Assembly: GCA_012031815.1 (NCBI GenBank)
Contig: JAAUTE010000005.1
Span: 1 to 35,618, forward strand
DNA length: 35,618 nt
Source of the DNA: Chloroflexaceae bacterium
GTDB taxonomy: Bacteria; Cyanobacteriota; Cyanobacteriia; Cyanobacteriales; JAAUTE01
Direction: 5' to 3'
Position 1 is the stretch's first letter. Every line of letters starts with the position of its first letter. Positions 4,506 to 29,175 of the stretch are shown here, piece after piece. A model generated the notes under the pieces. It was given only the letters and a program-made list of their open reading frames with translations, had not been told where the DNA came from and made no database searches. The position numbers and the translations under genes are program-made.

Positions 4506-5153
4506 TTAGCGCAGCGCCAGGCTAGAGTCTAGGGTTAGAGTCAAGTCCTGTTCCGGAGCGATAGAAATCAACTCTGCCGATTCCCGACCCAAAAAGACGC
4601 CGGCGATCGCGCCTAGACCAGCACCGCCCAGCACTTCCAACGCGCCAATATCGCCGAAAATGGCCGAGAGAACGCTAGCCGCTGCCGCACCGATGGCCGC
4701 CCCTTCAAGAATGTCGCCGGCACCGGCTCCTCTGCGGACGGTTTCCGTGCGGGTGACCGCATCAGAGCTGGCGTTGAGAAAAGTCCGGCGACCGTCGGGA
4801 AAAATCAATTCCTCTGCCACAAAGCGCGAACCACGACCCGCGGGTTCGATTTGTCCCACAATTTCGCTGTTGTAGGGAATCAGCAACCGACCGCTGCGAT
4901 CGCGGAGATTGGCCGCTACGGTCAGGGTCAGGGGAACGGTTTCGGTACGGGTGACTAGAATTTTTTCAGCCTCCTCGTATCTGACCGGCAAGCGAGTTCC
5001 GGCGGGGATGACGCTTCCGGTAGTAGACCCAGAAGAACTGGGGCGGGAGGGAAACAGTTGCCCCTGGGCAGGCATCACCAGGACGGTAGGTGCAGCAACC
5101 GTTAAAGATAGGGTCAGAAGCGCCGCTGCGCGACGAGACAGTAGATTTAACAT
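4506..5153 (-). CDS. Exported protein with TrbI-like beta domain and Gly/Ala-rich C-terminus
   Basis: The intact frame gives 215 residues. An N-terminal signal peptide is clear: Arg-Arg, then a long Leu/Ala/Val core, with likely cleavage after PAQG around residue 31. A Ser/Gly/Pro-rich linker leads to VIPAGTRLPVRYE, and then a stretch resembling the IPAGT-type domain of proteins often labelled conjugal transfer TrbI-like in cyanobacteria. Residues about 145-190 contain repeated Gly/Ala (GAGAGDILEGAAIGAAAAS), like a glycine-zipper membrane segment. No conjugation genes are near, so a role in DNA transfer is not supported. An envelope protein of unknown function is the safe call. Confidence 0.7.
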   Translation of the reverse strand: MLNLLSRRAAALLTLSLTVAAPTVLVMPAQGQLFPSRPSSSGSTTGSVIPAGTRLPVRYEEAEKILVTRTETVPLTLTVAANLRDRSGRLLIPYNSEIVGQIEPAGRGSRFVAEELIFPDGRRTFLNASSDAVTRTETVRRGAGAGDILEGAAIGAAAASVLSAIFGDIGALEVLGGAGLGAIAGVFLGRESAELISIAPEQDLTLTLDSSLALR

Positions 5154-5261
5154 GGATGTAATTGGTGGTGGTGAGGTAGCTCAAGCATGGAGACTTGATG
5201 TCTAGATCGACCGTCAACTTAAGAGCCGGGTTTCCCAGCCAATCCAAGGTCTGGCACAGGT

Positions 5262-6861
5262 TCAGGGGATGCGGGCCGGAGACTGTAGGAGCAAGCCGTA
5301 CTCAATGCCTTCAACCACAGCCTGATAGGACGCTTCCAGGATATTGGGAGAAACCCCCACGGTCGTCCAGCGGTTTTCGCCATTGCTGGATTCTACGAGT
5401 ACGCGGGTTTTAGCGTCGGTTCCCGCTTCGCTGTCGAGAATCCGCACTTTATAGTCGGCCAGGTGAAAGGCAGCAATTTGGGGATAAAACTTGACCAAAG
5501 CTTTACGGAGAGCCTCATCCAGGGCAGCAACGGGGCCATTGCCTTCGGCCACTTCCAGCAGATCTTTGCCGTTGACCGCTACCTTGATTGTAGCCACCGC
5601 ATTACTGTAAGGTGCCCCCCCCCTGGAGCGATCGCAATGGACTTGAAAGCCTTTTAGCTCAAACCATTCGGGGCGCTGTCCCAAGGCAGAGCGCATGAGT
5701 AGCTCAAAACTGGCTTCAGCGGCTTCAAATTGATAGCCCTGGCTCTCCAATTCCTTGAGACCGTCCAAAATCTGCCGACAGGCAGGGTCTTGTTTGTTCA
5801 GGTCGATGCCGAAGCTACGGGCTTTGTGGAGGACGTTGCTCAGGCCCGCTTGCTCGGAAATCACAATGCGCCGCTGGTTGCCCACTAATTCGGGTTGAAT
5901 ATGTTCGTAGGTTAGGGGGTTGCGCTCGACGGCGGAAACGTGGATGCCGCCCTTGTGGGCAAAGGCCGATCGCCCGACGTAAGGGGCGTGGTCGTCGGGG
6001 GCAAGATTGACAATTTCGCTGATTTCTCGGCTAGTACTGGTGATTTGGGCGAGCTGGCTGGGTTCCATGCAGTCGTAGCCCATTTTAAGCTGGAGATTCA
6101 CTGCCAGAGAACACAAGTTGGCATTGCCGCAGCGCTCCCCGTAACCGTTGATCGTTCCCTGCACCATGCGGGCCCCCTCCCGCACCGCCGCGATCGCATT
6201 AGCCACGGCTACCCCGGCATCATTGTGAGTGTGAATGCCAAAACGAGGCGCTTGACCGAGATTGGCGGCGACTTCTTGAACAATTTGACTGATTTCGTGA
6301 GGTAAGGTGCCGCCATTGGTATCGCAGAAAACTAACCACTCGGCCCCGGCTTCTTGAGCCGCTTTCAGGGTTTGGAGGGCGTAGTCGGGATTATGCTTGT
6401 AGCCGTCAAACCAGTGTTCCGCATCGTAGATGACCCGGCGGCCCTGGGTGACCAAATAAGCCACCGTATCCCGAATCATGGCTAAATTTTCTTGCAGGCT
6501 GGTTTTGAGTCCCTCACTCACTTGCAGATCCCAGGATTTGCCGAAAATTGTAATCCATCGGGTTCCGGCAGCTAAGACCGATTGCAGGAGTGGATCGGTG
6601 GCAGCGGCAGTTTGGGGGCGGCGAGTGGAGCAAAAAGCGACGATTTTGGCAATTTGTGGTCGGGTTTTCCTTGAGATGCCAAAATAACTGCACGTCTTTA
6701 GGATTGGCCCCTGGCCAGCCCGCTTCAATGAAGGGAACGCCCATGCCGTCCAGCTTGCGAATAATTTTGAGCTTATCTGCCAGGGAGAGGGAAATTCCTT
6801 CCCGTTGCGCCCCATCTCTCAGGGTGGTATCGTATAGCCAAATCCGGTGGTTGTCGCTCAT
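5262..6861 (-). CDS. cimA: (R)-citramalate synthase, one apparent +1 frameshift
   Basis: This enzyme condenses pyruvate and acetyl-CoA to (R)-citramalate, the first step of the threonine-independent isoleucine route. The N-terminus starts at ATG 6861 and carries DTTLRDGAQ (residues 10-18), the metal and substrate motif of the DRE-TIM/LeuA family. The frame is lost near 6655-6672, just after FWHLKENP. The next frame continues with [12 protein letters not shown], the [13 protein letters not shown] metal-binding motif, the GxxG-type [12 protein letters not shown] segment and the C-terminal LeuA dimer/allosteric domain. Removing one base gives 532 residues, normal for CimA-type proteins. Isopropylmalate and homocitrate synthases were considered, but the extended C-terminal domain and the overall pattern favour CimA. 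It is divergent from the ferredoxin gene. Confidence 0.85.
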
Positions 6862-27315: not shown

Positions 27316-28327
27316 ATGCGAATTATTTTCTTTGGCACGCCTTTATTTGCCGTCTCAACCTTGGAGCGCTTGCTAACTCACCCTGAATTTGAAATCATTG
27401 CGACCGTCACTCAACCCGATAAACGCCGCGGCCGGGGCAACGAAATGATTCCTTCTCCGGTTAAAAAAGTTGCTCTTAATTACGATCTCCCCATTTGGCA
27501 GCCCAGGCGGGTCAAAAAATCGGCTGAAACCCTTGATAAATTAACCCAAGCCCAAGCCGATGTTTTTGTAGTGGTTGCCTATGGCCAGCTTCTCTCCCCG
27601 GTCATTCTCGCCGCGCCCAAATTAGGCTGCATCAACGTCCACGGTTCCCTCCTCCCCAAATATCGCGGCGCAGCTCCTATTCAATGGAGTTTATATCACG
27701 GCGATCGCGAAACGGGAATTACCACAATGCTGATGGATGAAGGCATGGACACCGGGCCGATGCTGCTTAGGGCCACAACTCCGGTGGGATTATTGGAAAA
27801 TGCCCATGAATTAGCTGCTCGATTAGCTAATCTTGGTGCTGATTTATTAATTGAAACCCTGGTTAAACTGGCTTGCCTAGAAATAGAACCAACGCTCCAA
27901 GATTCTACCCAAGCAACCTACGCGCCCTTAATCCAAAAATCTGATTATGCTCTCGATTGGTCACGGGTTGCGATCGCCGTGCATAATCAGGTGAGAGGAT
28001 TTTATCCCAATTGCTTTGGTGAGTTTCGCGGTAAAACCCTCAAAGTTTTGAGGACTGTCCCATTAGGTGAAATGTATTGGGCAGAGTTACCAGAAAAATT
28101 TGAACCCTTGAGACAGTGCTGGAATGAGTTGACAAAATTTAGCGGGACAGCCGGGAGAAATTGTAGAAATTGTTAAAAACTTGGGCCCAATTCTCCAAAC
28201 AGGTTCAGGCTTACTATTATTGCAAGAAGTTCAACTGGCTGGAAAACGAGTGCAATCTGGTTGGGATTTTGTCAACGGGACTCGTTTAGAAGTGGGAGAA
28301 ATTTTAGCAGCAGGCGCTAGCGGATGA
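27316..28327 (+). CDS. fmt: Methionyl-tRNA formyltransferase, one apparent frameshift
   Basis: Fmt formylates initiator Met-tRNA using 10-formyl-THF. It starts at ATG 27316 with [19 protein letters not shown]. The catalytic region is intact: [20 protein letters not shown] (Asn and His) and [15 protein letters not shown] (Asp). Near 28134 an extra G (GCGGGACAG, expected GCGGACAG) shifts the frame and gives a false stop at 28176. Repaired, it continues [20 protein letters not shown] and ends at TGA 28325-28327, 336 residues, the family norm. The C-terminal tRNA-binding barrel is therefore present in the DNA. Confidence 0.9.
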
Positions 28328-28482
28328 CAGCCAAACTGCAAAGCTACCAACTCCAATGTAAAACTTTGTTTTGCCCAAATACCAACATCTTTCCCGTAAA
28401 AAATTCCATGCCAGTTGAGAACTGTTGAGAAAGTCATGGTAGGCAAAGAGCTATCAAAGTATACATTTACCGAAAAATTGGG

Positions 28483-28851
28483 TTTAAAGCCCCGTCCTTA
28501 TAGGACGGCTTTTCTGCTATTATTAAAAAGTGGAAAGGTAATCAACCACTTAAAAAACCTAGCTACCTAAAGGTAAAGCGCTGCACCTTGAAAATTGAAT
28601 CTATGCGGTTCTACTGCATTTTTCTAGACTCCACCTCGCAGTAGGTAAAAGATTCAGAGGAGCTAGACAAACAGTTTTGTTGGAACGATATGTTTCAAAT
28701 AAAAAAAGAATTTGGAGCAATCCAACTAGGGTAGGGCATACCCGAAGTCGCTTGGGGAGAGTCCCACCTCTGGGCTAGACACTGCAAGGTATCTGGTTTA
28801 AGTGGTCTCAGTGAACCAAGAATCCTCGTGCATTTATGCCGAGGAGTGTCA
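28483..28851 (+). ncRNA. HEARO / IscB-type omega RNA, orphan (no IscB gene)
   Basis: A roughly 370-base structured RNA candidate. It opens with a hairpin in which CCGTCCT (28492-28498) pairs with AGGACGG, flanked by AAAG/CTTT. It contains GGAGCAATCCAAC, then GTAGGGCATACCC, then GGGGAGAGTCCCACCT. It ends with the hairpin TCCTCG-GCAT / ATGC-CGAGGA (28823-28845) and GTGTCA. These blocks match my memory of HEARO RNAs, the guide RNAs of IscB nucleases carried by IS200/IS605-like elements; the OgeuIscB RNA has a similar GGAGCAATC block. No HNH/RuvC reading frame lies near, so any IscB would act in trans. Assignment rests on recognition by eye, not a covariance search. Confidence 0.6.
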
Positions 28852-29175
28852 ATGAAAGGAAACTTATTGGATCATGAATATCGCACCCTGTTAGTGCGCG
28901 ATCGCCGGGCAGGGGTTGTTGCTGGCCTTGGAAAAAGTGTCGGGATTGCTTTATTTGGGGGGAAAGAGCGGGTATCGCCCTATGAATTCGGCGGACTGCT
29001 GGCTCAGGAATGAGGACTGCCAAAAGAATTGATTAAGCCTTGCTGGCAGCGGGATGTGCCCATGACCGCTCCTCGGCCAGCTGATGTTTCCCTTGACAGT
29101 CGCCTCACCTTTTCCTGGAGCTATGAACCTCCTCCCCTGACAGTTCAATTAGCCGCTCTCCAAGGTCAAGTTTAA
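28852..29175 (+). pseudogene. RmlD-like (dTDP-4-dehydrorhamnose reductase type) 3' remnant with in-frame TGA
   Basis: One frame runs from 28852 to TAA 29173-29175, broken only by TGA at 29011-29013. The sequence resembles the C-terminal third of NAD-dependent sugar-nucleotide reductases: EYRTLLVRDRRAG, ALFGGKERVSPYEFG, LLAQE-stop-GLPKELIKP, then MTAPRPADVSLDSRLTFS. The TGA stands where relatives have Trp (TGG), so one G-to-A change explains it. The 5' two thirds, including the Rossmann nucleotide site, are absent. The remnant begins exactly at the end of the omega RNA, so the element may have landed in this gene and the upstream part was then lost. Confidence 0.6.

Follow-up and report, generated by a model that had tools for sequence, protein, structure and literature searches.

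Between fmt and a presumed rmlD remnant of a Chloroflexaceae bacterium lies a block of DNA that appeared to encode a structured guide RNA with no nuclease gene beside it. The initial annotation placed this block at positions 28483-28851 of the window (the whole stretch of 35,618 nucleotides analyzed here) and read it as an orphan HEARO/IscB-type omega RNA, which would be served by an IscB supplied in trans or would be left over from a decayed mobile unit. The question was which guide RNA this is, how it came to lie there, and which nuclease it might serve. The block itself was real and its structure beyond chance: the RNA had a fold energy of -99.4 kcal/mol, whereas shuffled sequences averaged -85.1 (z -2.65), and of 149 genomes from the same order 95 contained relatives, some of them matching the left end (LE) or right end (RE) only. 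Of the two flanking genes, fmt was supported by Pfam (PF00551/PF02911) upstream, whereas the rmlD remnant downstream gave a sub-threshold match only (RmlD_sub_bind, E 0.039). The fmt gene (window 27316-28327) showed an apparent frameshift near 28160, with the other frame continuing to ~28327; this may be a draft-assembly error or a real frameshift.

The Rfam covariance model of HEARO (RF02033) did not match at the site, either at the gathering threshold or at E<=10, and no other Rfam family matched the window at these thresholds. In this genome, RF02033 matched a different locus only (G000:C307, 145 bits), where a genuine HEARO RNA (5054-5266; L001:1501-3019) was located upstream of an iscB-like ORF. 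In the HNH region, this ORF meets stop codons immediately behind the CAYCGAKR motif, and it looks frameshifted or mis-assembled. Paralogs of the element were present in this genome at C114 (81%), C7 (74%) and C334 (100%, cut by the contig end). No IscB or IsrB ORF was present downstream of the element, in agreement with the initial annotation. The 3' end of the RNA seemed to resemble the type V-K Cas12k tracrRNA, but our covariance models (R1 and R2, below), run over 20 cas12k loci and 1.5 kb on either side, reached chance level only, and the genome itself contained no match to Cas12k. Group I introns and IStrons gave no Rfam match in the window or in 15 loci, and neither did RAGATH-18, the reRNA of IS607 (PMC11061315).

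The limits of the element were determined by joining the flanks of copies and comparing them with the orthologous sites of congeners without the insertion. All seven insertions compared were exact and without target duplication. The joined flanks carried one extra C in each comparison (L318 showed additional drift near the junction), so that the element spans this C to TGTCAA and follows TTAT. Carried over to the window from these comparisons, which all concern relatives with the target TTAT, the element occupies 28471-28852 after TTAC, and is therefore slightly larger than the block first described. GTCAA ended every aligned copy, the copies having been partly chosen by that ending, and was followed by unrelated DNA. 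In the empty alleles, the sequence expected to serve as guide came immediately after a TAM-like motif, and this geometry was cleanest in L320/L350 and L324/L331. The element comprises an LE with a hairpin, a -10 box, a single ~324-nt RNA, and an RE that closes with TGTCAA, arranged as follows:

28467-28470, + strand: TTAC, target site or TAM-like motif to the left of the element; in the empty sites of relatives, insertion is directly 3' of TTAT.
28471-28852, + strand: whole element, 382 bp, from C(GAAAAATTGGG) to TGTCAA; limits from the seven occupied/empty comparisons of relatives.
28471-28515, + strand: left end (LE), with a hairpin at 28492-28508; 89% match over 47 nt to the LE at C216.
28518-28523, + strand: likely -10 promoter box, TATTAT, 5-9 nt before helix P1 as TANNNT in 90 of 98 copies.
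28529-28671, + strand: 5' RNA domain with a P1/P2 pseudoknot and P5/P6 crossed by P7/P8; backed by covariation and unique to the protein-free elements.
28585-28590, + strand: ACCUUG, proposed to form pseudoknot P4 with CAAGGU (28785-28790) in the P13 loop; the core CCUUG/CAAGG is nearly invariant.
28666-28669, + strand: GACA, proposed to pair with UGUC (28847-28850) just before the guide, anti-repeat-like; near-invariant.
28710-28852, + strand: 3' domain, TnpB-type omega-RNA scaffold including the RE hairpin (28823-28845) and TGTCAA; homologous to tnpB 3' ends.
28853-28872, + strand: guide region, consisting of the flanking DNA TGAAAGGAAACTTATTGGAT; geometry from empty sites.

The LE at C216 that matches the window LE belongs to an insertion sequence with a tnpA fragment and tnpB, and the same LE type also flanks tnpB of the cognate clade. 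Two LE types were distinguished, each of which begins at TTAYC and is also found flanking cognate tnpB elements. Subterminal LE and RE hairpins were common to the window element, the C216 insertion sequence, and the cognate-clade tnpB elements, as expected of IS200/IS605 members. No tnpA ORF was found inside the window element, which is thus non-autonomous. We concluded that 28471-28852 is a non-autonomous, protein-free mobile element of IS200/IS605 type whose only cargo is a guide RNA, a conclusion well supported with respect to fold, mobility, and ancestry. A search of the genome for a second guide target with a TAM and up to 3 mismatches revealed no convincing one. In the right flanks, AAGGAAACT stood in the same register after GTGTCAA at the window element (28853-28872) and at the tnpB element of C268 (L015), possibly by chance or through a target preference.

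The ancestry of the RNA was evident from its 3' domain. The last ~140 nt matched the 3' ends of tnpB genes helix by helix in the alignment, including the stretch that codes for ...GHTGTHAWGE.PSG in TnpB; in the standalone copies of the same alignment, this C-terminal coding signature had decayed while the RNA pairs were kept. The covariance model R2 (3' half), built from standalone copies only, matched tnpB 3' ends at 35-116 bits, and the tnpB loci matched lay outside its training set. Of 22 R2 loci checked, 11 that were high-scoring or linked to R1 had no TnpB, and the 11 others had TnpB directly upstream, 50-83% identical to the protein at C268 of the genome under study. The C268 TnpB carries OrfB_IS605 and TNB domains, and its D-E-D motifs (GLDVGLK, YEDLN, EDRDVNA) are intact by inspection. 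Besides 3-4 standalone copies, this genome encodes the TnpB at C268 and a fragment of TnpB at C27, and standalone and tnpB-borne copies of the same scaffold likewise coexist in the genomes whose top R2 matches were checked. None of the standalone copies lay inside or overlapped a tnpB of its own; their link to TnpB omega RNAs is the homology of the scaffold to the tnpB 3' end plus RE. As judged from alignment, the 3' 140 nt are thus well supported as the omega-RNA scaffold of the TnpB clade present at C268, which replaces IscB as the candidate partner, while the earlier view of an omega-RNA type guide within a mobile unit was upheld, with the implication that a nuclease would be supplied in trans.

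Upstream of this scaffold, the RNA contains a domain of its own. A TANNNT hexamer was found 5-9 nt before P1 in 90 of 98 copies compared with 6-18 at control offsets; the window contains no full sigma-70 consensus and no recognizable -35, and a promoter at the start of the RNA is likely from this conservation. The fold was examined in an alignment of 53 copies with pseudoknots written out, in which the 75 pairs were 95.1% intact. Compensatory double changes were observed at 44 of the 75 pairs compared with at most 20 in slid control structures. Double-change cells numbered 435, whereas shuffling gave 125 and sliding no more than 94; the shuffle control, unlike the slid one, is inflated by related sequences. 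The covariation score was 0.346 versus at most 0.078. P1 was fully paired in 44 of the 53 copies when scored with a flexible position (shuffled mean 17), and the crossing helices P7 and P8 were backed by double changes. The P4 and GACA/TGTC pairs are near-invariant and outside the reach of covariation, and are therefore only proposed; three of the four GACA/UGUC pairs were paired in 100% of cells. The two internal signatures noticed earlier proved to be pairing elements, GGAGCAATCC being helix P9 and GTAGGGCATACCC helix P10, and the RE hairpin was indeed followed by GTGTCAA. The compensatory changes and the conserved -10 box indicated that the RNA has been maintained, contrary to the suggestion of a decayed unit.

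The model R1, covering the first ~136 nt of the RNA, found no tnpB locus, its matches in that set being other standalone elements only. R2 follows R1 at a short distance in nearly all copies: among ~85 R1/R2 loci the spacing was short with one exception (L148, 283 nt), and none had tnpB between the 5' and 3' domains, as an autonomous version would. Shortened variants were observed at L262, L263, and L272 (G427, G212), in which P1/P2 and the 3' scaffold were kept and most of the P5-P8 core was missing, which suggests that the 5' domain is reducible.

Of 386 genomes sampled from the phylum, at least 56 contained R1, a minimum since few candidates were scored per genome, and a degenerate pattern searched over genome contigs returned >100 stretches. 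Among the matches listed, all had cyanobacterial names except one Gracilibacteria MAG, and the family is almost confined to cyanobacteria. One genome of another order (G168) held 17 diverged R1 copies, yet R2 gave only one match there, a weak one. Copies were also present on a Dolichospermum plasmid, in Nodularia phages, and in two IMG/VR contigs. In Nodularia phage vB_NspS-kac65v151 (L247, 119691-120000), the RNA copy lies just 3' of an intein-containing ribonucleotide reductase gene, and a small hypothetical protein annotated antisense over the RNA is probably a spurious gene call. A dozen or so copies carried a divergent RHH gene of ~41-55 codons, encoded on the strand opposite to the RNA and ~40 nt upstream (best match NikA-like, 5e-9; CopG-type RHH_1, 1e-5; others weak). 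A left-end motif lies beyond this gene in L070, L156, and L165, so the gene seems to be part of the element, and its product may repress the promoter region that is shared. The two IMG/VR copies (L245, L246) have a divergent RHH gene and no recognizable LE, and are possibly fixed and non-mobile.

In known TnpB systems, the guide preserves a record of where the element inserted, and TnpB cleaves sites that lack the element (PMC11870625); TnpB also processes its omega RNA out of the mRNA that encodes it (PMC10278001). With regard to the window element, we consider it probable, with due reserve, that it is an RNA-only parasite which supplies its own guide RNA to TnpB in trans and also borrows TnpA. 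The -10 box of the element would drive an RNA starting at helix P1 (~28529) and running through the pseudoknotted 5' domain and the TnpB-type scaffold into a guide in the flanking DNA. A cognate-clade TnpB made elsewhere in the genome, such as that of C268, would bind this RNA in trans and cut the element-free copy of the site (TTAY plus the sequence matching the guide), and repair from the occupied copy would restore or spread the element. The occupied site would be immune to self-cutting because TGTCAA replaces TTAY. TnpA from related elements would move the element, and the 5' domain may make the RNA more stable or help it to compete with cis-made RNA. Since all RNA-side requirements are kept and the protein is missing, use of TnpB in trans for the element's own retention is the simplest reading. 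TnpB is very common in cyanobacteria, however, and its presence in the same genome is for that reason weak evidence for use in trans; a preference of TnpB for cis RNA would count against it, as do the scarcity of R2 matches in G168 and the lack of a recognizable -35 in the window, and the 5' domain could serve another protein.

The latter thought leads to a dedicated non-TnpB effector that recognizes the 5' domain, which would account for a domain with phylum-wide conservation that tnpB loci lack, and for the small RHH gene inside or adjoining some copies. We regard it as unlikely, given that no effector-size protein gene is consistently adjacent, that Cas12k loci matched neither model and the genome has no Cas12k match, and that the 3' scaffold is of TnpB type. 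An RNA that acts as a decoy or regulator of TnpB would agree with that scaffold: the scaffold would bind TnpB and the 5' domain, for which pairings to the P13 loop and to the TGTC adjoining the guide are proposed, would block guide use or cleavage, whereby an element or a phage would tame the host TnpB. The copies in Nodularia phages and in the two viral contigs fit such a role. A decoy, however, needs neither an RE end and guide junction that are strictly kept nor a guide geometry that fits empty sites, and most copies are dispersed mobile insertions instead of phage genes, so this explanation is rather unlikely as well.

An inert relic or MITE would require no effector at all. Its ends would be kept as TnpA substrates only, a known type of which comprises LE and RE hairpins like those seen here, and its inner structure would stem from a recent ancestor or be selected as single-stranded DNA; the dispersed copies and the lack of a notable ORF inside them are in line with this. 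Interior pairs far from the ends are nevertheless retained in divergent copies by way of double changes, and the conserved -10 box has no role in TnpA recognition, which makes a relic quite improbable. The HEARO/IscB reading, with IscB acting in trans, draws on the IscB-like locus and genuine HEARO RNA at C307. In view of the failure of the HEARO model in the window even at E<=10, the homology to TnpB omega RNA with the guide 3' of the scaffold, and an iscB at C307 that reads as frameshifted, we consider it extremely improbable.

The preferred reading, an RNA-only parasite of TnpB, relates to several known systems. The element shares with the TnpB omega RNA of IS200/IS605 (IS1341-like) elements the scaffold helices P10-P13, the RE hairpin, the TGTCAA end, TTAY on the left, and a 3' guide taken from flanking DNA, but it has no tnpB, has its own -10 box and an extra pseudoknotted 5' domain of ~140 nt, and has lost the coding constraint of the tnpB C-terminus. 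It resembles the non-autonomous IS200/IS605 derivatives (MITEs, 'palindrome-associated' elements) in having LE and RE only, no transposase, and precise insertion without duplication, whereas in place of filler DNA it contains a conserved RNA that covaries and likely has a promoter. Standalone HEARO/IscB omega RNAs with no adjoining nuclease gene were reportedly described by Altae-Tran in 2021; they are likewise guide RNAs without a neighboring nuclease, but belong to another RNA family and another nuclease lineage, with the guide 5' in HEARO and 3' in the window element. The reRNA/RAGATH-18 of IS607 TnpB (PMC11061315) is also a guide RNA independent of coding sequence, but it adjoins tnpB, and the window RNA has no Rfam match. 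Our literature search brought up no account of elements that consist of a TnpB omega RNA alone and carry a 5' domain of this kind, although an earlier mention is possible.

Together, these results point to a conserved and apparently unannotated family of guide-RNA-only transposons, whose copies are likely unannotated in cyanobacterial genomes since the RNA family has no Rfam match. Tentatively, they may represent a phylum-wide class of RNA-only selfish elements in which a dedicated guide RNA, equipped with its own promoter and a pseudoknotted 5' domain, captures the TnpB of other elements as a gene drive for itself. Such a class would be an RNA-guided counterpart of a SINE living on a LINE, a protein-free element that persists by programming the nuclease of another element. 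The guide-RNA and nuclease parts of an OMEGA system would then have been separated in nature, a separation that also happened on the way to CRISPR-Cas12. If so, the element would offer a compact TnpB guide RNA of natural origin, transcribed separately and extended by a domain, and would allow TnpB action in trans to be tested directly in vivo.
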